Part shown: positions 97 to 29,050 of the stretch, one piece after another
How positions within the stretch are numbered: position 1 is the stretch's first letter
Layout of the letters: each line of letters begins with the position of its first letter
Translations under genes and position numbers: made by a program
NCBI GenBank assembly: GCA_025351745.1
Contig: JANXVI010000464.1
Location: 1 to 32,784, forward strand
Reading direction: 5' to 3'
Length of the DNA stretch: 32,784 nt
From: Rhodoferax sp.
GTDB lineage: Bacteria; Pseudomonadota; Gammaproteobacteria; Burkholderiales; Burkholderiaceae_C
Notes under the pieces: model-generated
What the model saw: the letters and a program-made list of their open reading frames with translations, nothing else
What the model was told of the DNA's origin: nothing
The model's database searches: none

Positions 97-172
97 TGGT
101 GCCGCTTAACGGAATCGAACTGTTGACCTTCTCCTTACGAAGGAGCTGCTCTACCAACTGAGCTAAAGCGGC
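97..172 (-). tRNA. tRNA-Thr (anticodon CGT)
   Basis: This is a 76-nt cloverleaf on the minus strand. The acceptor stem is 172-166 with 107-101, the discriminator A is at 100, and CCA is encoded at 99-97. The D stem is GCTC/GAGC, the anticodon loop is TTCGTAA giving anticodon CGT, and the T loop is TTCGATT. The anticodon arm and variable region closely resemble E. coli thrW, the CGU threonine tRNA that reads ACG codons. A G-A mismatch closes the top of the anticodon stem, as in thrW. It stands alone with its own terminator. Confidence 0.95.
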
Positions 173-1543: not shown

Positions 1544-4276
1544 TCAATCTGCGAGGGCGCGGTCAATGACCTCGCGGACGTCGTTGGAGAGGTCCGACTT
1601 GGCGGCCACGCGGGCCAGTGCCTCCCGGGCGGCGCTGCGGTAGGGCTCGGCCAGGCGCTTCCACCGGTCTAGCGCGCGTGCCAGTCGGGCGGCCACTTGC
1701 GGGTTGATTCCGTCCAGCTCGATCACGCGCTCGCTCCAGTACACATACCCTGCAGCGTCAGCGCGGTGGAAGCCGCCTGGGTTGGCATTGCAGTAGCTGA
1801 AGATGACGCTGCGCGCGCGGTTGGGGTTGCGGATGTTGAAGTCGCGGTGGACCATCAATTGGCGCACGGCGGGCAGCACGTTGCCACCTCGGTCGGGCGC
1901 ACCGGCTTGCATGGCAAACCACTTGTCCAACACCAGATCTTCGTTTTTGAACAGCGCATGGAAGCGTGCCAAGGCCGGGGCGGCAAGGGGGTGACTGCTG
2001 CTAACCAGTGCCTGAAGGGCATTGGCGCGGTCGGTCATATTGCCGGCATCCTTGAAGCGTTGCAAGGCCTTGCCGGGCCATACTGCATCACCGTTCTGTT
2101 GGGCAGCCAGGCACAGGTAGCACAGCGCCATGCCGACCAGGGCGCGGCGGCCCGATGAGGTGGCGTCTGGGCTGTAGCCACCGATGTCCTGGTGTGCCTC
2201 AAAGGCCCATTGCCAGTCCGCCTGCAAGCTGGTTGCGATCTGCATGCGCATGGCTTCGCGCACCCCATGGATGCGCTGTGGGTCCACCACGTCGAGTTGT
2301 TCGGCAATGTAGGTTTCGCTGGGCAGCGTTAGCACCAGGTCTTTGAACGCCGCGTCGAGCGTTGGGTGGCGCAGCACGCTGCGCATGGCCTCGATGTATG
2401 CATCATTTAGGACGGTAGCCCTTGTGGAATTTGGGTGAGCTGCTATCGCATTTATAGCACTTCGCAGTGCTAAGCGTTGACCCGCTTCCCAGCGACTGAA
2501 TGGATCAGTGTCATGGGCCAGTAGCGTGAGCAACTGCGCATCGGAGTAGTCATAGTCCAGTAGCACGGGTGCCGAGAAGCCGCGCAGGATGGAGGGCACG
2601 GGTTCTTCGGCCACGCCGGTGAAGGTGATGCTGGCGGTCTCACCTGTCATCACAAACAGGTGATTGTTGGCTGGCACGTCGGTGCCGCCTTGTACTGTGA
2701 GGGGAATGTCTGCACCGGTGTGGCTGCCCACCAGGCCCAGTAGTACCGGGATAACAAAGGGCTCATGGTGTTCCCGGTTGGTGGTGGTGGAGCAAAATTG
2801 CTTGAACGCCAGTGTGTAGGTCTGGGTCGCTGCGTCGTAGTTGCTGCTGGCAGACAGATGGGGAGTGCCCGCCTGGCTGTACCAGAGCTTGAACTGTGGC
2901 AGCAACTGGGCCAGACTGGAGCCAGGGTTGGCATCCGCCATGCTTTGCGCAAAGTCGTCGCAGGTCACGGCCTGGCCGTCAAAGCGCTCGAAGTACAGCT
3001 TCATGCCCCGCGCAAATCCTTCTCGGCCAGAAGGATCGTTGGGCCCTTCGGTAGCCAGCGTCTGCATCATGCGCACGACCTCGGCACCTTTTTCGTAAAT
3101 GGTGACGGTGTAGAAGTTGTTGATCTCGATATAGCTGTCCGGGCGCACCGGGTGGGCCATGGGGCCAGCGTCCTCCGGGAACTGGGCGGTGCGCAGTACG
3201 CGCACGTCTTCGATGCGTTTAACGGCGCGGGCCGAAGCCTCGCCACACATGTCCTGGCTGAATTCCTGGTCGCGGAACACAGTCAGGCCTTCCTTCAGAC
3301 TCAGCTGGAACCAGTCTCGGCAGGTGATGCGGTTGCCGGTCCAGTTGTGGAAGTATTCGTGCCCGACCACGCTCTCGATGTTGGAGAAGTCAGCGTCGGT
3401 GGCGGTGGCCTGGCTGGCCAGCACGTATTTGGAGTTGAATATGTTCAGGCCCTTGTTCTCCATGGCGCCCATGTTGAAGTCGGCGGTGGCGACGATCATG
3501 AAGCGTTCCAGGTCCAGCGGCAGGCCGAAGCGGGCTTCGTCCCAGGCCACGGATGCCATCAACGAATTCATCGCATGTTCGGTTTTGTCCAGGTCGCCTG
3601 GGCGCACGAACACCTGCAGCAGGTGGTCTTTGCCGGCCCGGCTGGTGATGCGCTGCTCGCGCGCGACCAGTTGGCCTGCGACCAGTGCAAACAGGTAACA
3701 AGGCTTCTTGTGTGGGTCAACCCACTTGGCGAAGTGGCGACCGTCTTCCAATTTTCCGCTATCGACCAGGTTGCCATTGGACAGCAGCACCGGGTACTTG
3801 GTCTTGTCGGCGCGCAGCGTCACGGTGTACATGGCCATCACATCCGGGCGGTCCAGGAAGTAGGTGATACGCCTAAAGCCTTCAGCCTCGCACTGCGTGA
3901 AGAACGAGTCGTTACTGGTGTACAGCCCCGACAGCTTGGTGTTCTTGCTCGGTGCGCAGGTCGTGAAAATCTCTAACTGGAAGGGCTCGTGGCCTTCAGG
4001 CAGGTTTTCCAGCACCAGACAGTCGCCTTCCATCTTGAAAGACGTGCCCTGGCCGTTCACCAGCACGCGCGCCAGGTTCAGCTCTTCGCCATCCAGCTTG
4101 AGTGCCTGCGGCGGCACGTCCGGGTTGCGGCGCAGCAGCATTTTGTTCAGCACGCGGGTCTTGGCCGGGTCCAGATCAAAAGTCAGCTCCACCGTGTCGA
4201 TGTGGTACGCCGGGGCCGCGTAATCAGCTCGTTTGATGACGACGGGTGCGCCTTCGTTGTCGTGTAGTTGCAGCAT
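1544..4276 (-). CDS. pepN: Aminopeptidase N (M1 family zinc metallopeptidase)
   Basis: This is a broad-specificity cytosolic aminopeptidase that trims N-terminal residues from peptides late in protein turnover. The 910-aa protein has the M1 signatures: the exopeptidase motif GAMEN at 270-274, the zinc site HEYFH at 306-310, and the third ligand Glu in KEG at 329. The C-terminal half matches the DUF3458/alpha-solenoid part of bacterial PepN. The start at 4276 is preferred over an upstream start at 4315 because GGAG sits seven bases before this ATG. The stop is 8 bases before fbp. Around residues 607-620 the chain contains a mini-repeat insertion ([15 protein letters not shown]) encoded by the repeat described separately. 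It falls in the helical C-terminal region and leaves the frame intact. Confidence 0.95.
2417..2459 (-). repeat. Intragenic mini-repeat, copy A (in pepN)
   Basis: Read on the minus strand this copy has the form TGCT-N10-TAGC-N16-ACAAGGGCT, followed by ACCG. The same blocks with exactly the same spacing occur at 7779-7821 and 9189-9231. It lies within pepN on the coding strand. GCT is a codon, so it adds Ala-x3-Ile-Ala-x6-Thr-Arg-Ala without a frameshift. Confidence 0.8.
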
Positions 4277-4339
4277 GTTGTTCTCCAGATTATTTATGGG
4301 GGCAGCGCGGTACACGAAGTGACAAGTGTGGGGGCCATA

Positions 4340-5444
4340 TCAGACGCCCTGTTTTAGAGACGCTTCGATGAACACATCGAGGTCGCCATCCAAAACTTTT
4401 TGCGTCGCGGATACCTCGACATTGGTGCGTAGGTCTTTGATGCGGCTGTTGTCGAGTACGTAAGAGCGGATCTGGTGGCCCCAGCCCACATCAGTCTTGG
4501 TGTCTTCCAGCTTTTGCTGGGCTTCTTGTTGCTTGCGCAGCTCGAAGTCATACAGGCGCGAACGCAGGCGCTTCCAGGCGACATCGCGGTTGCCGTGCTG
4601 GCTGCGGCCGTCCTGGCACTGCACCACGATGCCGGTCGGGATGTGGGTCAGGCGCACCGCCGAGTCGGTTTTGTTGATGTGCTGGCCACCGGCGCCGCTG
4701 GCGCGGAAGGTGTCGGTGCGCACATCGCTGGGGTTGATCTCGATCTCAATCGAGTCATCAATTTCGGGATACACGAACACGCTGGCAAAGCTGGTGTGGC
4801 GACCACCGGAAGAGTCGAAGGGCGACTTGCGCACCAGTCGGTGCACGCCGGTCTCGGTGCGCAGCAGGCCAAAAGCATATTCGCCTTCGATCTTGATGGT
4901 TGCGCCCTTGATGCCAGCCGTGTCGCCCGCAGTCTCGTCTTCTATGGTCGTTTTGAAGCCCTTGCGTTCGGCGTATTTGAGGTACTGGCGCAGCAGCATG
5001 CTGGCCCAGTCGCAGGCTTCGGTGCCACCGGCGCCGGACTGAATGTCCAGGAAGCAGTTGAGCGGGTCGGCCGGGTTGCTGAACATGCGGCGGAACTCCA
5101 GGCCCTCGATGATGGCGGCCAGCTTGGCGGTCTCGCCCTCTATTGTCTTCAGACCGGCTTCGTCGCCGTCTTCCTTGGACATGTCGAACAATTCGAGGTT
5201 GTCAGACAACTCGCTTTCCAGCTCGGTGATGGTGACCACTACGCCATCCAGTGCTTTCTTTTCCTTGCCCAATTCCTGGGCGCGCTTGGGGTCGTTCCAG
5301 ACGGTGGGGTCTTCTAGCGATGCAACAACGGTGCGCAGGCGCTCGGCTTTGGCATCGTAGTCAAAGATACCCCCGTAACTCTTGGGTCCTTGCGGTCAGG
5401 CCGTTGAGTTGGGTGCCGATGAGGTTGATGCGTTCGATTTCCAT
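4340..5444 (-). CDS. prfB: Peptide chain release factor 2 with programmed +1 frameshift
   Basis: RF2 ends translation at UGA and UAA codons on the ribosome. The gene is read as two segments: 5444-5364 (27 codons, [10 protein letters not shown] to CTT) and 5362-4340. One T at 5363 is skipped at the in-frame TGA (5363-5361). The slippery site is the classic GGG-TAT-CTT-TGA-C, preceded by a Shine-Dalgarno-like CGGGGG run. RF2 therefore controls its own synthesis: when RF2 is scarce the ribosome slips and full protein is made. The product has 367 aa. The UGA-reading tripeptide SPF is at 207-209 and the catalytic GGQ at 252-254, preceded by RASGA with Ala where E. coli K-12 has Thr. ORF callers miss the first 57 residues and start at a TTG at 5272. 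AGGA upstream of 5444 is a plausible ribosome binding site. lysS, often found next to prfB, is not adjacent here. Confidence 0.96.
5359..5378 (-). promoter_or_regulatory. prfB +1 recoding site
   Basis: On the minus strand the purine-rich SD-like CGGGGG is followed by TAT CTT TGA C. The CTT-TGA slippery pair occupies 5366-5361. Zero frame is open from 5444 to the TGA, and the +1 frame is open from there to 4340. Translation after the shift continues as [10 protein letters not shown], which matches RF2, so the site is intact and needed. Confidence 0.95.
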
Positions 5445-5497
5445 GGTGCTACTGTCCTAAACGGTGAATTTTGGGAATAACCTGCCATTTTAGGTGG

Positions 5498-5513
5498 GAC
5501 GGCACCTGCCGTC
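5498..5513. other. Short stem-loop between the lipase gene and prfB
   Basis: GACGGC and GCCGTC form a perfect 6-bp stem with a 4-base loop, starting just after the stop of the patatin-like gene. No T-tract follows on either strand, so an intrinsic terminator is doubtful. It may slow transcription or protect the upstream mRNA. Confidence 0.3.
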
Positions 5514-5516
5514 GAT

Positions 5517-6653
5517 TTATCGGTGCGGCACGCGCAGATCGTCCAGATAGTCCCGCCCGATGTTGATGCTGGACGAAGACCCCAAGTGGGCATATTTCGT
5601 GGCCAGCCAACGCTTGGCGCAGGCTGCGCCCAGGTCGCGCAGTGTGTGGATGAGCTTGGCGTCCGTGGCCGATTTGGTGGATGCGGCAAAACCCTCCAGA
5701 ATTTCGCCGCCATCAATGCGGTGCATCAACACGTTCTTGTAGCGCAACGGGTCCAGCTTGCCCTCCATCAGCAGTCGCTTGACAAAATCTATGGCGCGCA
5801 TCTCGGCAATCAGCGCCGCGTTGAACGTGATCTCGTTGAGGCGGTCCATGATGTCGCCCGCTGACGTGGGCAGCTTGTCGCGTTTGATGGGGTTGATTTG
5901 CACCAGCACCACGTCGCTGCTGTCGCACTCGTAGATCAGCGGGTGAATGGCGGGGTTGCCCGAATAGCCGCCGTCCCAGTAATGTTCGCCATCGATCTCT
6001 ACCGCCCGAAACACCGTGGGCAGGCAAGCCGATGCCATAACCGCTTTGGCGGTGAGCCGCTTGCCCGAAAAGACTTCGGCCTTGCCGGTGGTAACGGTGG
6101 TGGCCACTACGAATACCTTCAGTGCCTTGAAGGCCGCCAGCCGGTTGAAGTCGATTTTGTCTTCCAGAAATTTCTGCAGGGGGTTGATATCCAGCGGGTT
6201 GCTTTGGTAGGGAGACACATTGGCGGACCAGAAGCTGGCCATGGCGTCTGTGAACATCTGGCCGGGAGATGGCCCTGCTGCGGTCCCGCCGAAGCCGCCA
6301 AACAGCACGTCAAACGGCGCACGCTGGGCCTGCGAGATGGATGAGCCCATGGCACCCATGTCCACAATGCCCTCCCAAAACGCCGACAACGACGCCCGTG
6401 CCGACTCTTTCATCTTCGCTGGGGGCTGACCCTCTGCTTGCGCGAAGCCATGGGCTAATGCGACTGCGTTCATGGCCCCCGCACTGGTGCCGCTGATGCC
6501 TTCAAATGCCACGCGGCCATCTTCTAACAAAGTGTCTAGAACGCCCCAGGTAAAGGCGCCGTGTGAGCCGCCGCCTTGCAATGCAAGGTTGACGCGCGGC
6601 GGGGTGGCATTGGGTAGTGGCGCGGGGTGCGTCAGGTCAGATGGGATATGCAT
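5517..6653 (-). CDS. Patatin-like phospholipase
   Basis: This is a predicted serine lipid acyl hydrolase of the patatin/RssA group, acting on membrane phospholipids or other acyl esters. It has 378 aa. The anion-hole glycine motif GGGSHG is at 27-32, the nucleophile elbow GTSAG at 55-59 (Ser57), and the catalytic Asp sits in DGG at 227-229, so the Ser-Asp dyad is complete. No signal peptide is seen, so it is probably cytosolic or peripheral. It follows the alpha/beta hydrolase gene by 24 bases on the same strand and precedes prfB by 72 bases. No strong ribosome binding site precedes the ATG, and coupling to the upstream gene is possible. The true substrate cannot be read from the sequence. 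Confidence 0.88.
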   Translation of the reverse strand: MHIPSDLTHPAPLPNATPPRVNLALQGGGSHGAFTWGVLDTLLEDGRVAFEGISGTSAGAMNAVALAHGFAQAEGQPPAKMKESARASLSAFWEGIVDMGAMGSSISQAQRAPFDVLFGGFGGTAAGPSPGQMFTDAMASFWSANVSPYQSNPLDINPLQKFLEDKIDFNRLAAFKALKVFVVATTVTTGKAEVFSGKRLTAKAVMASACLPTVFRAVEIDGEHYWDGGYSGNPAIHPLIYECDSSDVVLVQINPIKRDKLPTSAGDIMDRLNEITFNAALIAEMRAIDFVKRLLMEGKLDPLRYKNVLMHRIDGGEILEGFAASTKSATDAKLIHTLRDLGAACAKRWLATKYAHLGSSSSINIGRDYLDDLRVPHR

Positions 6654-6677
6654 GACCCGAGGGTAGCAAAGTTCTGC

Positions 6678-7592
6678 CTAAGCAATAAAACGCTCTATGA
6701 GCCCCGCCAAAATATACGGCTGGTCGTGGTGCATCATGTGGCCGGCATCGTGTATCAGCGCGATCTCGACGTTGGGGACGCTCTTGATGCGTTCGTGGTA
6801 CTGCTCTAGCGTGAACTTGCCTTTCCACCACAGGTCCAGGCTGTTGTCGGAAGCTTCCACTGCCAATACTGGCATGTTCAGCCGGCTGTACAAGGCCAGC
6901 ACTTCTTCGGACTGGTAGAGGTGCGCGCTGATGACCTTGTGCGCCGGTTGGCCCAGAATGGTCCACTTGCCATCGGCGTTCTCGGTGGCCCAGTGCCTGG
7001 ACAGCCAGTCGGCTTTGTCCTGGCTCAAGCGGGGGTTGGTCTTCATCAGGCGTCGGGCCACGCCGCTGACTGCGTCGTATGCGCGCAAATCCATTTCGCC
7101 GCGGTGCAGCTTCTTCAACTCGTCCATCCACTTGGCATACCGCGCCGGTGCCATGTCGGGTGTGGTGGCGGGCAAGCCAAACCCTTCCAGGTTGACGAGG
7201 CGGCGTATGCGCTCAGGGCGCACACCGCCATACAGCATCACGACATTACCGCCCAGGCTGTGGCCGACCAGGTTTACGGGGCGGTCGGGGGCGTAGTGGT
7301 CCAGCAAAAAATCCAGGTCTGCCATGTAGTCAGGGAACCAGTAGTTGTCGACTTCGCCTGACGGGGTTTTCCCGTATCCCCTCCAGTCGGGCGCGATGAC
7401 GTAATGGTCTTGTTGGAACGCGTCTACGACGAATTGGTAACTGGCCGCCACGTCCATCCAGCCATGGACCATGACCAGCGGGATTTTGTCGGAGGAGGGT
7501 TCGCCCCAGATCTGCACGTGGTACTGCAGATTGCGTATAGGGACAAACTCGCTTCTGGATGATCTTTTGACTTGGTACATTTGCTCCATCAT
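6678..7592 (-). CDS. Alpha/beta-fold hydrolase
   Basis: This is a 304-aa single-domain hydrolase. The oxyanion region is MVHGWMD at 41-47, the nucleophile motif GHSLGG at 110-115 (Ser112), and a C-terminal HDAGHMMHHDQP segment at about 281-292 holds the catalytic His near 285. This is the pattern of carboxylesterases, epoxide hydrolases and related enzymes; the substrate is unknown. It has no signal peptide. The start codon is only 13 bases from the divergent acyl-CoA synthetase start, so each promoter must lie inside the other gene or one start is mis-set. An ATG four codons later is possible, but GGAG would be only 3 bases from it. A patatin-like lipase follows downstream, so a lipid or ester role is plausible inference. 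Confidence 0.85.
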   Translation of the reverse strand: MMEQMYQVKRSSRSEFVPIRNLQYHVQIWGEPSSDKIPLVMVHGWMDVAASYQFVVDAFQQDHYVIAPDWRGYGKTPSGEVDNYWFPDYMADLDFLLDHYAPDRPVNLVGHSLGGNVVMLYGGVRPERIRRLVNLEGFGLPATTPDMAPARYAKWMDELKKLHRGEMDLRAYDAVSGVARRLMKTNPRLSQDKADWLSRHWATENADGKWTILGQPAHKVISAHLYQSEEVLALYSRLNMPVLAVEASDNSLDLWWKGKFTLEQYHERIKSVPNVEIALIHDAGHMMHHDQPYILAGLIERFIA

Positions 7593-7605
7593 ACGGAGCC
7601 ACGGG

Positions 7606-9417
7606 ATGCCAGTCAGTCAAAACCGAGACAAATCAACGCCTGCCAATAGCGTAGACCTCCCCCCTACAGCCGGGGTGCCGGATATCTATGCCCATTTGCA
7701 CAGCAGTTTCACCTGGGCCGTGCCGCAGACCTTCAACATTGCTGAAGTGTGTTGCGCGCGCTGGGCGGCCCAGCCGGATGCTATGAAAAATATAGCTATA
7801 CACGAATACTCCACGAGGGCTGGAGGCACTTTTTTCTCATACGCCAAGCTGCAGGAACAGGCCAATCGGCTGTCCAACGCGCTGCTGGCGCATGGTGTAG
7901 CGCGCGGCGACCGCGTGGCCATCGTCATGCCCCAGTGCTTTGAGACGGCGGTGGCGTACATAGCCGCGCTGCAAATGGGCGCTGTGGCCATGCCCCTGTC
8001 GTTGCTGTTTGGGCCGGACGCACTGGAATACCGCCTGCAAGACAGCGAAGCGGTGGTCGCCATCGCCGACCACGCTTCATTGTCAGACCTGCGACTGGCA
8101 CGCAAGCACTGCCCCATGCTGCGCACCGTGATCGGCGTGGGTGCGCCTGACGCCGTGCAACACATGGCCGACTGTGACTTTGCGGACGCACTGGCCCAGT
8201 TCAGCACACGGTTTGCGCCTGCGCTGACCACGGCGGACGAGCCCGCCATCCTGATCTACACCAGCGGCACCACCGGCAACCCCAAAGGCGCACTGCTGGC
8301 GCACCGGGCGCTGATCGGCAACTTGCCCGGCTTTGTCGCCAGCCAGAACTGGTTTGGCTTTGACCCCCTTGCCGAAGGCAGTACAGATGCCGTCTTCTGG
8401 AGCCCCGCTGACTGGGCGTGGACCGGCGGATTGATGGATGCGCTTTTGCCTACGCTGTACTTTGGCCGCCCCATCGTTGCCTACAACGGGCGCTTCGCGC
8501 CGCAGACTGCGCTGGAGCTCATGGGGAGTTGTGGTGTGACCCATACTTTTCTGTTCCCGACCGCCCTCAAGGCCATGATGAAGGCCTTTGCGGGCACGCC
8601 CGAGCGCACGGTACGCCAGCAGTTCGAGCTCAAGCTGCAGGCCATCATGAGCGCGGGAGAGGCCGTGGGCGATGCAGTATTTGCGTATTGCGAGCATCAG
8701 TTGGGTGTCAAGCCGAACGAGATGTTTGGCCAGACCGAGATCAACTACATCGTCGGCAACTGCAACGCCTTGTGGCCCTCCAAGCCCGGCAGTATGGGCA
8801 TGGGCTACCCCGGCCACCGCGTGCAGGTGATCGACGAGGTCGGCAACGAATGCCCGGTAGGCGTTCCGGGGGATGTCGCGCTCAACCGGCTCGACGTACA
8901 CGGCCAGCCCGATCCCATCTTCTTTTTAGGCTATTGGAAGAACGAGGGCGCGACCGATGCCAAGTTCACCGGCGACTGGTGCCGCACCGGCGATATGGCC
9001 GTGCGCGATGCTGATGGCTACCTGTGGTTTCAGGGTCGCAGTGACGACGTTTTCAAGTCCGCCGGTTACCGCATCGGTCCTGGCGAGATCGAGAACTGTC
9101 TGGTCAAGCACCCCGCCGTGGCCAACGCCGCTGTCGTGCCAAAGCCCGACCCCGAGCGCGGTGCGCTGGTCAAGGCCTATGTCGTCATTGCTCCTGATTT
9201 TGTAGCAACTTGTGCAGGCGATACGAGGGCTACCGCCGAATTACATGAAAGCTTGACGGTGGAATTGCAATCCCATGTCAAAGGCCTGCTGGCGCCTTAC
9301 GAGTACCCCAAAGAGATCGAATTTGTGGACGCCCTGCCCATGACCACCACCGGCAAGGTGCAGCGCCGTGTGCTGCGCCTGCAAGAGGAGGAGCGCTATG
9401 CAGCGACCCGCGTTTGA
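7606..9417 (+). CDS. AMP-dependent acyl-CoA synthetase (acetyl-/medium-chain type)
   Basis: This enzyme activates a carboxylic acid with ATP to an acyl-adenylate and then to the CoA thioester. It has 603 aa. The P-loop-like IYTSGTTGNPKG lies near 215-227, the MFGQTE core motif in the middle, WCRTGDM and the hinge region after it, and the acylation-domain lysine in TTTGK is Lys584. The start at 7606 is chosen over an upstream in-frame start at 7471 because GGAG stands 7 bases before it and the earlier part overlaps the divergent hydrolase. It most resembles the ACSM/Acs-like branch rather than long-chain FadD, which is inference. Two in-frame mini-repeats add residues near 59-72 and 529-542; the second sits in the mobile C-terminal domain before the catalytic lysine. 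Confidence 0.9.
   Translation: MPVSQNRDKSTPANSVDLPPTAGVPDIYAHLHSSFTWAVPQTFNIAEVCCARWAAQPDAMKNIAIHEYSTRAGGTFFSYAKLQEQANRLSNALLAHGVARGDRVAIVMPQCFETAVAYIAALQMGAVAMPLSLLFGPDALEYRLQDSEAVVAIADHASLSDLRLARKHCPMLRTVIGVGAPDAVQHMADCDFADALAQFSTRFAPALTTADEPAILIYTSGTTGNPKGALLAHRALIGNLPGFVASQNWFGFDPLAEGSTDAVFWSPADWAWTGGLMDALLPTLYFGRPIVAYNGRFAPQTALELMGSCGVTHTFLFPTALKAMMKAFAGTPERTVRQQFELKLQAIMSAGEAVGDAVFAYCEHQLGVKPNEMFGQTEINYIVGNCNALWPSKPGSMGMGYPGHRVQVIDEVGNECPVGVPGDVALNRLDVHGQPDPIFFLGYWKNEGATDAKFTGDWCRTGDMAVRDADGYLWFQGRSDDVFKSAGYRIGPGEIENCLVKHPAVANAAVVPKPDPERGALVKAYVVIAPDFVATCAGDTRATAELHESLTVELQSHVKGLLAPYEYPKEIEFVDALPMTTTGKVQRRVLRLQEEERYAATRV
7779..7821 (+). repeat. Intragenic mini-repeat, copy B (acyl-CoA synthetase N-terminus)
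   Basis: It has the form TGCT-N10-TAGC-N16-ACGAGGGCT. The codon frame gives Ala-Met-Lys-Asn-Ile-Ala, then six residues, then Thr-Arg-Ala, the same frame as copy A. It is on the coding strand of its host gene, at a loop where related synthetases have a short, variable stretch (the last point is from memory of the family). Confidence 0.8.
9189..9231 (+). repeat. Intragenic mini-repeat, copy C (acyl-CoA synthetase C-terminus)
   Basis: It has the form TGCT-N10-TAGC-N16-ACGAGGGCT, followed by ACCGCCGAATTA. The first N10 block has lost the A-rich character of the other copies, but spacing and all conserved blocks are identical. It is in frame and encodes Ala-Pro-Asp-Phe-Val-Ala, six residues, Thr-Arg-Ala. 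Confidence 0.8.
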
Positions 9418-13812: not shown

Positions 13813-14054
13813 GCTGGTGAGAGCAGCCAAAGAAGCTGCACGTACATTGCACAACCGCCATATCCAATGGACCAATCGTCGCGTGAGTCATGATCAGCGT
13901 GGTGTTGCATAGACTGTTTGGGTGAGACTCTCGATTTTGATCATACCCGAGGGGGAGCCTGACTGTTTAACGTTTGCTGGCACTGTGGACTGCCAGAATG
14001 TGCTCGGGTCAGGTGTAGTGTGAACCCTGCAGGACTCTTGGAAATGCATGGGTG
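13813..14054. other. Intergenic region ahead of the PAS kinase
   Basis: This is a 242-bp gap between the HD-GYP stop and the kinase start, with no gene in it that I can support. On the minus strand a TATGAT element follows a TTAAAC at a 19-base spacing, a poor promoter candidate. No terminator hairpin with a T-tract is visible. Confidence 0.4.
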
Positions 14055-15188
14055 CTACGTATCCTCCGCATTCGTGTGCTGCTCTGCAACGGCCCTGCAC
14101 TGCGCCTCAATCGCCACAAAGGCATCCAGCACGTCCGGATCAAAATGGAAGCCGCGACCTTCGTTGATGATCTCCATGGCCGCTTCGTGCGTAAAGGCGG
14201 GTTTGTAGACGCGCTTGCTGATCAGTGCGTCGTACACGTCGGCGATCGCCATCAAACGGGCGGAGATGGGGATGGCGTTTCCGGCCAGACCTTCGGGATA
14301 GCCTGATCCATCCCATTTTTCCTGGTGTGAGTAGGCGATTTCCTTGGCGCACTGCAAAAACGGTACGGTTTTTCCCAGGCGGGTCTCGGCGCTTTCGATG
14401 GCTAGCTTACCCAGTGTGGTGTGCGTTTTCATGATCTCGAACTCTTCGGCAGTGAGTTTGCCGGGCTTGAGCAAAATGCTATCGGGGATACCGACCTTGC
14501 CAATGTCGTGCAGCGGCGCAGACTTGAACAGCCGATCGATCATCTCGTCATCCAGGTAATCACTAAAGCGTGGGTGGCTGCGCAGATGCTCGGCCAGCAG
14601 GCGCACATAGTGCTGCGTGCGAACGATGTGGTCGCCCGTTTCATTGTCGCGCGTTTCGGCCAATGAGGCCATGGTCAGAATGGTCACGTCCTGTACGTCC
14701 CGCAGCTCCGCGGTACGGCGCTGCACTTCGGCTGTGCGCCGCTGCACTTCTTGCTCCAGAAAGTCGTTCTTGTTGCGCAGAAAGTCAGACGAGGCCTTGA
14801 GCGTCAGATGGGTCTTGACCCGAGACATGACGATGGCCGGACTGATCGGTTTGGTGATGTAGTCCACTGCGCCCATTTCCAGGCCCATTTCTTCGTCGTG
14901 CTCTTCCGTGCGTGCGGTCAAAAAAATCACGGGAATGCCGCGGGTAGCCGGGTTGGTCTTGAGCTGGCGGCAGACCTCGTAGCCGTCCATGTCGGGCATC
15001 ATGATATCCAACAAAATGAGGTCAGGAGTCTTGTCGCTATTGGCAATTTTCAAGGCCCGTGCGCCGCTAGAAGCCACTTTTACAGTGTATTGGTCCTGCA
15101 ACAAATCGTTCATCAGAACAAGGTTGGCCGGTGTGTCATCTACCACCATGACGGTCTGGCGATCTTGGCGGGGGTTTTGAGTGTCCAT
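14055..15188 (-). CDS. REC/HD-GYP response regulator (cyclic-di-GMP phosphodiesterase type)
   Basis: This 377-aa two-domain protein has a receiver domain (1-125) with phospho-acceptor Asp61 in LLDIMMPD and the conserved Lys in ITKPIS. A helical linker with the repeated motif QRRTAE follows, then an HD-GYP domain with HDIGK near 227 and the GYP signature in EKWDGSGYPEG. HD-GYP proteins of this RpfG-like layout break down cyclic-di-GMP, and the metal-binding His/Asp residues appear present. The start at 15188 (MDTQNPRQ) is chosen because the receiver begins right after it. It lies 25 bases after the hybrid kinase stop, so the two are probably one operon and a phosphorelay pair, with motility or biofilm control as the likely output. 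Confidence 0.9.
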   Translation of the reverse strand: MDTQNPRQDRQTVMVVDDTPANLVLMNDLLQDQYTVKVASSGARALKIANSDKTPDLILLDIMMPDMDGYEVCRQLKTNPATRGIPVIFLTARTEEHDEEMGLEMGAVDYITKPISPAIVMSRVKTHLTLKASSDFLRNKNDFLEQEVQRRTAEVQRRTAELRDVQDVTILTMASLAETRDNETGDHIVRTQHYVRLLAEHLRSHPRFSDYLDDEMIDRLFKSAPLHDIGKVGIPDSILLKPGKLTAEEFEIMKTHTTLGKLAIESAETRLGKTVPFLQCAKEIAYSHQEKWDGSGYPEGLAGNAIPISARLMAIADVYDALISKRVYKPAFTHEAAMEIINEGRGFHFDPDVLDAFVAIEAQCRAVAEQHTNAEDT

Positions 15189-27209: not shown

Positions 27210-28283
27210 ATGGGGTCAAAATCTGGGTTCATGAAAGACACCCAAATATTATCGGCGTTCCACGAGTTAGTCCCGCCCAACGACGAGCGGCCCTCCGGTT
27301 CGGCTCCGGTGGAGGCGGCCTTGGTGTTCGACGCTTGTCAGACGGGTGTGGTGCTGCGCGCCGTGTTGTTTGTGGAAGTTTGTGCCGGGGTTGGAGTGGC
27401 GTTCGCCGCCTTTGACCTAGTGGACTGGGTCATTCGCCTGGCGATGGTGACTGGGGGCGCCTTGCCAGCCACCCTGTCCTGGTTGCTGTTGGCTTGCCTG
27501 ACCAAGCGGCTGGTTGCGCGTTTGCCAGCAGCGATCCAATACACGGTGGCGGTTGCTATGGGAGCTGTCGCAGGGTTGTACGGCTGTGCCATGTTGGCCT
27601 GGTCGGGCTTGTTGGTGGGGCCGCCGTGGGTTGCAAGCGCCTTCAGCGGACTGTTGCTGTCTGGCATTCTGGTGGGAGCCTTGGTCATGCGCAGCAAGGG
27701 CCGCATGCCCGCCGATACGTCCGCCCGGCTGGCGGAGCTGCAGTCGCGCATACGGCCGCATTTTTTGTTCAACACGCTCAACAGCGCCATCGCCCTGGTG
27801 CGGGCAGAGCCTCCCAAGGCCGAGGCGCTGCTGGAAGATTTGAGTGATTTGTTCCGCGAGGCCTTGAATGACTCCGGCGAGCCGGTGCGCCTGGCCCATG
27901 AAATCGAGCTGGCGCAGCGCTACCTGGCCATCGAGCAGGTGCGCTTTGGCGAACGCCTGCGCGTGCAGTGGGCGATAGACCCGGCCGCCGATGACGCCAA
28001 ACTGCCACCGCTGTTGCTCCAGCCTTTGGTGGAGAATGCGGTACGCCACGGTGTGGAGCCCAGTGCACAGGGCGCCGACGTGCGCATTTCCACCCAACGC
28101 AGGGGTTCCATCGTGGTGATCAAAGTGACCAATACCGTGCCCAGCGGGCAGGGCGAGCAGGGCCAGGGGCTGGCATTGCGCAACGTGCGCGAGCGCTTGT
28201 CGCTGCTGCACGATGTGCAAGGGCAATTCAAAAGCGGCCTCAAGGATGGCGTCTACCAGGTGCGCATGGAGGTGCCTATATGA
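27210..28283 (+). CDS. LytS/AlgZ-type sensor histidine kinase
   Basis: This is a 357-aa membrane kinase of the His_kinase (PF06580) group. Four or five hydrophobic segments fill residues 45-165, then the phospho-acceptor His184 lies in [13 protein letters not shown], and a HATPase-like domain has [17 protein letters not shown]. This class lacks a classical HisKA domain. It overlaps the LytTR regulator by ATGA (28280-28283), so the two form a coupled pair. Position beside argH suggests orthology with P. aeruginosa AlgZ/FimS, which is inference. The start may be ATG 27210 or ATG 27231; neither has a strong ribosome site. The sensed signal is unknown. Confidence 0.88.
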
Positions 28284-29050
28284 CTGCCACGAACGGCCCC
28301 AGCATCGGTATCCTCAGAGCATTGGTCGTAGACGACGAAAGCCTGGCGCGAGTCCGCATGCGCACCCTGCTGTCCGACTGCACAACGCCTGCCGTACATT
28401 GCATGGGCGAGGCGGCCAACGCGGTGCAGGCCATGGAGATGCTGCATCACCAGGCTGTAGACGTGGCCCTCATTGATATCCACATGCCCGGTGCCGACGG
28501 CCTGACGCTGGCGCGCTCGATGCAGTCCTTGCCGCAGCCGCCCGCGCTGATCTTTGTCACGGCCCATGCCGAGCATGCCGTGCTGGCCTTCGATCTGGAA
28601 GCGGTGGACTACCTTACAAAGCCGGTGCGGCTGGAGCGTTTGCAGCAGGCGCTACAAAAAGTAGAGCGCATTGTGCAGACCCGACGAGGGCTAGCGGCCA
28701 CTTTTCCTCAAGAGGATGTGCTGATCATCCAGGAGCGTGGCCGCACTGAGCGCATTCCGATCCAGCAGATTCTGTACTTCAAGGCCGAACTGAAATATGT
28801 AACCGTGCGCACCGCCACGCGCAGCTACATTCTGGACGGCTCGCTCAATGAGCTGGAAGAAAAACACCGGACCGACTTTGTGCGCATCCACCGCAACGCC
28901 CTGATCGCGCGCCGCGCCGTGCGGGCGCTCGAGAAGCATTTTGACGCGGAAGAGGGCGAGGGCTGGGCGGTGCGGCTCAACGGTGTGGATGAATTGCTGG
29001 CGGTGTCGCGGCGGCAGTTGGCTGCGGTTCGGGGGTTGGTGTCGCGGTAG
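28280..29050 (+). CDS. LytTR response regulator (AlgR-like)
   Basis: This 256-aa regulator has a receiver domain with the acidic pair in VVDDES, phospho-acceptor Asp66 in ALIDIHMPG, and Lys in DYLTKPV. A linker (about 125-150) is followed by a LytTR DNA-binding domain (IPIQQILYFKAELKYVTVRT, then FVRIHRNALIARRAV). It is coupled to the upstream kinase by the ATGA overlap and is its natural partner. In AlgR the homologous domain controls alginate and type IV pili genes; the target here is unknown. A diverged mini-repeat copy lies at the receiver/LytTR linker. In related Pseudomonas and betaproteobacterial genomes hemC commonly follows, but it is not here. Confidence 0.9.
   Translation: MTATNGPSIGILRALVVDDESLARVRMRTLLSDCTTPAVHCMGEAANAVQAMEMLHHQAVDVALIDIHMPGADGLTLARSMQSLPQPPALIFVTAHAEHAVLAFDLEAVDYLTKPVRLERLQQALQKVERIVQTRRGLAATFPQEDVLIIQERGRTERIPIQQILYFKAELKYVTVRTATRSYILDGSLNELEEKHRTDFVRIHRNALIARRAVRALEKHFDAEEGEGWAVRLNGVDELLAVSRRQLAAVRGLVSR
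28650..28692 (+). repeat. Diverged mini-repeat, copy D (LytTR regulator linker)
   Basis: GCT-N10-GAGC-N16-ACGAGGGCT shows the exact spacing of copies A-C and an A-rich first block, with one change (TAGC to GAGC) and CGCT for TGCT. It lies in the interdomain linker in the sense direction but in a different reading frame (the GCT is split between codons). It may be a fourth copy or chance resemblance. Confidence 0.4.

Follow-up and report, generated by a model that had tools for sequence, protein, structure and literature searches.

Introduction

Several described families of dispersed DNA signals and repeats invite comparison with the motif presented here. DNA uptake sequences (DUS/USS) are about 10–30 bp long and contain a short core of about 9–12 bp. 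They occur in many dispersed copies, are over-represented on both strands and, in Neisseriaceae and Pasteurellaceae, form dialects that are uniform within a genome and differ between lineages. DUS dialects have been described as conserved within species and as following phylogeny (PMC3630211). Uptake sequences are reported to originate from point mutations in sequence that is already present (PMC1939737) or through recombination (PMC2397512), rather than by transposition. REP/REPIN elements are extragenic palindromes present in hundreds of copies and associated with RAYT genes. A pair of inverted REPs is said to flank every RAYT (PMC2817692), and the repeats themselves are described as a master sequence accompanied by near-identical copies (PMC8049555). 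Rickettsia palindromic elements, about 150 bp long (PMC10969869), are short repeats that are read as peptides within unrelated proteins. In Comamonadaceae including Rhodoferax, the Beta-proteobacterial repeat element BRE was described by Hot et al. in 2011 (PMC3110155); it is about 90 bp long with 69% GC in Bordetella, is often tandem and reaches at most 29 copies per genome (4 in R. ferrireducens), some of them wholly within coding sequences.

The motif of this study shares features with several of these systems. Like uptake sequences, it is dispersed evenly over both strands and spelled in lineage-specific dialects. Like REP/REPIN elements, it occurs in hundreds of copies, belongs to a genus with RAYT genes and is found at the 3′ end of a RAYT gene in many motif-rich genomes. 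Like the Rickettsia elements, it is read as a peptide within unrelated proteins. In contrast to uptake sequences, however, it extends over 62 bp and is thus far longer, with fewer and more information-rich copies. It also differs from the Rickettsia elements in length and, compared by description only, from BRE. Searches of an open-access library for the motif itself, for uptake sequences in Comamonadaceae and Burkholderiales, for repeats of Rhodoferax and Comamonadaceae and for RAYT/REPIN gave no description of this 62-bp motif.

Results

Motif copies in the window and in the genome

The window, i.e. the whole stretch of 32,784 nucleotides from a Rhodoferax sp. contig that was analysed here, had initially been annotated as carrying three 43-bp repeats with identical spacing, all in the sense orientation and in one codon phase of pepN and an acyl-CoA synthetase gene. 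Coordinates, strands, spacing and phase were confirmed, and none of 100 dinucleotide-shuffled versions of the window contained a match to the pattern. Alignment of first 33 and then 201 distinct copies revealed that the 43-bp units are part of a motif of about 62 bp (approximately position 0 to 62). The proposed pattern stood but its extent did not, and a fourth copy in the window had been missed. The relevant features are as follows.

1544..4315, minus strand: pepN, aminopeptidase N, host gene (TIGR02414 above cut-off)
2397..2460, minus strand: motif copy in pepN (55.6 bits; sense, frame 0)
7471..9417, plus strand: AMP-forming acyl-CoA synthetase, host gene (25 families listed, all below their own cut-offs)
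7778..7841, plus strand: motif copy 1 in the acyl-CoA synthetase (69.8 bits; sense, frame 0)
9188..9251, plus strand: motif copy 2 in the acyl-CoA synthetase (53.3 bits; sense, frame 0)
28280..29050, plus strand: LytR/BtsR-like response regulator, host gene (below the families' cut-offs)
28649..28712, plus strand: fourth, deviant motif copy in the response regulator (49.4 bits; sense, frame 1)

The fourth copy is missing the usual TAG of the motif, which normally closes sense frame 1.

The 5.1-Mb home genome (498 contigs, 91.7% complete, 6.85% contamination) contained 234 matches to the exact pattern, 116 on the plus and 118 on the minus strand, and no match to the reversed pattern. The earlier view of a genuine short repeat family, far more frequent than expected by chance, which proteins tolerate and selection or drive maintains, was right. 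A looser pattern yielded 369 matches. A weight matrix was scanned over 828 kb of DNA, comprising the window and overlapping home-genome stretches; as these were picked largely for holding copies, conservation at the positions of the search pattern is partly built in. The scan gave 201 distinct copies above 20 bits, and the reversed sequence gave no match at any threshold of 10 bits or more. Scores were sharply bimodal, with 178 of 203 matches above 40 bits and intermediate scores rare in the home genome. The motif carries 57.3 bits over about 62 positions, 39 of which hold at least 0.6 bit, and its conserved blocks are spread across the 62 bp with a strongest conservation period of 12.5, not about 10.5. 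The home-genome consensus is approximately tYGCTAYnnWWTnnRTAGCtgctnRCGCAnATTCCACGAGGGCTAGmGgCCnATTTtnCnTAAR. Copies occur in both orientations, within genes as well as between them.

Independence of the copies

Mean pairwise identity among the 201 copies was 0.58. Nearest neighbours had a median identity of 0.73, compared with 0.716 in simulated draws made independently at each position. A single pair (L006/L030) exceeded 0.85 and lies in a duplicated segment whose flanks are shared too; identical 64-mers had been collapsed, and a recheck revealed no separate exact duplicates hidden by this step. Mutual information was found chiefly between adjacent bases. The copies look as if each had been drawn independently from a single degenerate consensus and, given these identities and the single near-identical pair, no recent copying is seen in the 201-copy sample, which sets the motif apart from the master sequence of REP/REPIN populations. 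The inner stem pair, positions 5 and 13, varies without the covariation of a REP palindrome (TA 79, CA 45, TG 44 and CG 25 of 201). The outer stem bases are nearly invariant, and the second stem varies between genera. A hairpin or RNA element was rejected because the inner pair does not covary and Rfam has no match for the motif: at gathering score, the window and stretches L031–L034, L308 and L313 yielded only a tRNA (window 100–172, minus strand) and an anti-hemB RNA (RF02837; L032 260–345, minus strand).

Lineage-specific spelling

The strongest result of the analysis is the existence of dialects. They were tabulated for 18 home-genome sites with a motif in at least one relative, leaving out relatives' copies of 12 bits or less as scored with the dialect positions masked. 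Positions 37, 39 and 42 were A, G and T in 18/18 copies of the home genome and in 17/17 copies of the relative G202. The corresponding set of genome G206 comprises 15 sites, which come from the 16 hosts searched (of 30), from the window and, in one case, from a neighbouring position. Here, position 37 was G in 13, position 39 C in 14 and position 42 C in 11 of the 15. Over positions 36–42 the home genome and G202 thus read GAGGGCT, only two bases deviating among their 35 copies, and G206 mostly GGGCGCC. At the three sites known from the window, G212 and G214 mostly have GGGGGCT, G200 has A-GCGC and G208 is mixed.

The spelling at these three positions has changed together at unrelated loci even when the protein was altered. 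At nine sense sites of G206, the change replaces Arg by Gly in eight cases and by Ser in one, and at antisense sites Leu by Pro in four of five. Sense and antisense host genes are affected alike, and residues have been altered together across many genes.

The remaining positions tell a different story at the same sites. Agreement at the 25 low-information positions was 0.576 when copies of a shared site were compared and 0.392 across different sites (0/20,000 permutations), a difference to which protein conservation contributes as a partial confounder; dialect positions agreed to only 0.133 at shared sites. Agreement with G202 was 0.957 at high-information and 0.738 at low-information positions, so that fixed positions are better preserved than variable ones. 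Because the low-information positions keep site-specific ancestry, the copies have not been replaced as units. Concerted spelling combined with retained site ancestry points to a trans-acting reader of the motif.

Gene context, strand and frame

Copies were assigned to coding or non-coding surroundings by a home-made three-periodic coding model, which found the right frame for 87% of 240-bp pieces taken from its training set. It classified 193 of the 201 copies, the other eight having short flanks. In contrast to the extragenic REP/REPIN elements, 39 lay inside an open frame with coding sequence to either side of the copy; 86 had coding sequence on one side, 58 on neither, and 10 fell into other arrangements. 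The 39 intragenic copies comprised 19 in antisense frame 1, 16 in sense frame 0, three in sense frame 1 and one in sense frame 2, so that the single strand and single frame seen for the three initial copies do not hold genome-wide. All three copies in sense frame 1 are without the TAG that normally closes it.

Stop codons were examined in the 154 other classified copies. Stop-free copies numbered 104 for sense 0, 64 for antisense 1, 57 for antisense 2, 36 for sense 2, four for antisense 0 and one for sense 1. Scaled to 39, this predicts about 15 intragenic copies in sense 0, 9 in antisense 1, 8 in antisense 2, 5 in sense 2, 0.6 in antisense 0 and 0.1 in sense 1. Thus, stop avoidance explains much of the frame distribution. 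Two frames do not follow this expectation, antisense 2 with no copy observed and antisense 1 with 19, so the peptide also matters. The typical sense peptide is A-[IT]-x-x-[IV]-A-...-S-T-R-A and the typical antisense peptide L-A-L-V-E-x-A-x-x-A-T-K-x-[IV]-A. The host set used below consists of 32 of the 39 intragenic copies, after removal of one near-duplicate (L030) and of six below 39 bits, which are possibly not true copies.

Three positional roles were considered and rejected. A terminator or promoter role does not fit the neighbouring gene ends, which are mixed (64 five-prime, 42 three-prime). One-strand runs as expected of a polar (replichore) motif appeared among the matches listed, but opposite-strand copies occurred in the same stretches. 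On contig C1 of genome G259, strands are mixed with 30 of 54 neighbours co-oriented; in home-genome stretches 45 were alike and 34 not. Spacing on the G259 contig was not even (CV 0.84 versus 0.97 for random, P 0.13).

In-place change and gain of codons at host sites

The repeats had been regarded as inserted into their host genes. Host-site lengths were compared with those of motif-free orthologues. The PepN site spans 63 bases between flanks in the home genome and 54, 54, 54, 57, 63, 63, 63 and 66 in eight motif-free orthologues of the same genus; nine genes from other families have 51–102 bases, five of them 57–60. The residues native to a site can be read from motif-free orthologues, and motif-free L148 encodes the same SAINAIA with other codons. 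Synthetase site 1 likewise has 63 bases in the home genome, versus 63, 63, 63, 60 and 78 in motif-free members of the genus and 54 in two other families. At synthetase site 2, the own 63 bases compare with 63 or 66 in six motif-free members of the genus, 33 in one and 27 in two other families. The latter short versions show that this loop did grow. At the window sites the copies are nevertheless no simple insertions, most motif-free orthologues from the genus being of similar length there. Synthetase copy 2 deviates at motif positions 4–5 because its Ala-Pro-Asp-Phe corresponds to the Ala-Pro-Glu-Phe of motif-free L176.

Sixteen of 30 host sites were looked up in five relatives, leaving out host groups 1 and 3 (14 of 30). 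This gave 62 rows at 17 sites, namely 15 of the 16, one neighbouring site and one probable paralogue (L361); the remaining host, L063_5006, gave no row. Among the 37 rows below 10 bits, length was equal to the home length in 11 and within 3 bases in 15, and the rest ranged from −84 to +45 bases, mostly shorter. The clearest gain is in ProA, gamma-glutamyl phosphate reductase, in which 22 extra codons carry an antisense motif (L067, around 14002–14065) and the motif-free rows of four relatives are all exactly 66 bases shorter. These extra codons seem to be shared with G202, whose homologous stretch (L367) carries a motif of 50.5 bits; G206 has no ProA copy. Over the searched host sites, the motif was found in 14/14 rows of G202 and, at 20 bits or more, in 10/13 of G206. 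Motif-rich genomes may also lack it at individual sites: there is no motif at PepN of G211 (−49.3 bits) and almost none at synthetase site 2 of G208 (0.9 bits).

Solved relatives point in the same two directions. PurK aligns without gaps to 10bm and 4e4t, and LigA to 2owo across the motif. MiaA is 3 residues shorter than 3crm and 8 longer than 2zm5. ProA is net 22 residues longer than 4ghk, as is aconitase compared with 2b3x (named iron-responsive element binding protein 1). The CCA enzyme had no solved-structure match at E 1e-20. We take 10bm, 4e4t and 4ghk to be Burkholderia, 2owo and 2zm5 E. coli, and 3crm Pseudomonas structures. Protein length at PepN, synthetase site 1, PurK and LigA is thus about that of motif-free relatives, and the extra length in ProA, aconitase and synthetase site 2 shows that some copies arrived with additional codons. 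In-place change and block gain both occur.

Distribution among relatives

Of 200 genomes of the family, 40 matched the home-dialect pattern; they represent 31 of 141 genera. Named genomes gave matches in at least 114 stretches. The 80 listed belong mainly to MAGs that bear the names Rhodoferax, Polaromonas, Comamonadaceae or uncultured beta proteobacterium, next to further names from Comamonadaceae and a few contigs with distant ones, for example Flavobacterium. In the genus itself, 26 of the 61 genomes had at least 15 matches with one of two patterns, a limit of our choosing by which we call genomes motif-rich; the other 35 had 0–9, with 6–9 in G232, G250 and G256 and 0–4 in the rest. A PepN and synthetase tree, calculated with motif columns unmasked and with node support of 37–100 on a weak backbone, placed motif-poor G207 beside motif-rich G212 (100) and G213 with G205 beside G206 with G200 (93). 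If the motif was ancestral to that clade, this placement implies at least two losses, and we infer that lineages nested among motif-rich ones have lost it.

Candidate readers

ComEC was present in 22/26 motif-rich and 33/35 other genomes of the genus and is not associated with the motif. The 99% complete genome G235 has 207 copies and no ComEC. Y1_Tnp (RAYT-type) genes were equally widespread (23/26 and 32/35). One RAYT gene, here called RAYT-A, encodes about 232 amino acids starting with MARLPRL or similar. A modified motif (above 0 bits) in opposite orientation lies at its stop codon in 16/20 motif-rich and 0/18 motif-free loci, scoring above 12 bits in 12 of the 16. This single copy on the 3′ side is unlike the two inverted REPs described for RAYTs. 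Five RAYT-A-like loci classed as 'other' by their start (motif-rich G253 and G262, low G232, motif-free G203 and G241) had no motif copy. The RAYT-linked copy of the home genome is weak (4.8 bits). A similar stop-codon placement was seen for 25 of 154 home-genome copies, corresponding to about 1% of genes at an assumed gene number. In G214, a second RAYT-like gene has full motif copies on both sides in the same orientation. The home RAYT is flanked by a different inverted repeat of the AATTGGGGTCGGATTCCAATTAA type (L368 2519–2541 and 3359–3381), which is possibly its true REP. A sequence like it recurs at other RAYT loci.

The residue aligned with the Tyr of YIDLNPVR, presumably the catalytic tyrosine, is Phe in motif-rich G206, G243, G268, G269 and G238 (genes L369, L376, L377, L395 and L399) and Ala or Ser in four motif-free genomes. 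Judged from the alignment, the enzyme may have lost catalysis where Tyr is replaced.

Discussion

We are confident that the copies are sites of one DNA motif of about 62 bp that is read in trans, evolves in place and bears dialects. How the dialects arise is a separate matter. A trans-acting factor would read the motif, and a shift in its specificity would cause all sites to follow. As with DNA uptake sequences, exchanged DNA with the right spelling would be favoured in uptake or recombination, so that the preferred spelling would spread site by site by molecular drive and protein changes would be a side effect. By analogy, such uptake-sequence-like drive would be the most likely mechanism, a preference that we hold tentatively. 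In this sense, the motif may work like a DNA uptake sequence dialect rather than be one. Its length, its information content, the block gains and a motif-rich genome without ComEC set it apart from uptake sequences and weaken the case for this mechanism, and the rarity of intermediate scores in the home genome fits badly with gradual in-place evolution. It is also conceivable, if rather doubtful, that the motif represents a new class of long chromosomal recognition motif (62 bp), read in trans and distinct from short uptake sequences as well as from REPs. Shifts in the specificity of its reader would then rewrite hundreds of sites in place, forcing Arg/Gly/Ser and Leu/Pro changes in unrelated proteins, and motif loss would let all sites decay.

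We rank second, as an unlikely mechanism, a REP-like repeat bound by a domesticated RAYT that once spread it, with binding keeping the copies and the dialect tracking RAYT specificity. The RAYT-A stop-codon copies, the doubly flanked gene of G214 and the strongly derived RAYTs of G206, G200, G243 and G268 speak for this reading. However, the 16 RAYT-A associations are not independent because the loci are related by descent, RAYT genes persist in genomes without the motif, and the repeat around the home RAYT is a different one. Moreover, the motif-rich loci of G253 and G262 lack a copy, the G214 copies are not inverted, the putative catalytic Tyr is Phe in five motif-rich genomes, and near-identical copies are limited to one pair.

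A binding site for an architectural or chromosome-maintenance protein, with many sites each under weak selection, would account for the even mixture of strands, for the presence in genes and spacers alike and for conserved blocks over the whole 62 bp. This explanation appears improbable, since it demands selection at each of several hundred sites on 39 positions, including those that change amino acids. Copies show no orientation order on the G259 contig or in home-genome stretches, unlike polar segregation motifs, and the conservation period is not that near 10.5. Ordinary gene conversion among old repeat copies would keep them alike within a genome and yield species-specific spelling, but is very improbable as variable positions a few bases away are unhomogenised and retain the ancestry of their site. 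Least credible is the initially proposed mobile, peptide-coding mini-element inserted in frame like the Rickettsia palindromic elements, to which the 66 bases missing from four relatives at ProA, the net length of ProA and aconitase and the on the whole shorter motif-free orthologues lend some support, but which is at odds with the lack of such a gap at PepN, synthetase site 1, PurK and LigA, with two strands and four frames, with the lack of recent copies and with concerted dialects at old sites.

Should the dialects prove to be genome-wide, residues in many enzymes of an environmental bacterial family would be set, lineage by lineage, by a signal in the DNA, a natural experiment on the extent to which DNA drive can prevail over selection on proteins. 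Either the biology of uptake sequences would then include Comamonadaceae, with a signal of unusual length, or a new trans-acting reader would come to light. With several dialects and with sister species poor in the motif, comparison and binding assays should be able to find this reader.

Two further observations concern a host gene and the motif itself. Many relatives of the synthetase can be aligned only from codon 40–65 onward (window 7471–7660), and four orthologues have in-frame stops within the aligned span; the first start of the synthetase open frame may be too early. In G178, which belongs to another genus, a 7-bp second stem GCCCTTG/CAAGGGC is possible where G206 has GCGC/GCGC, and the second hairpin may formerly have been a structure in some lineages.
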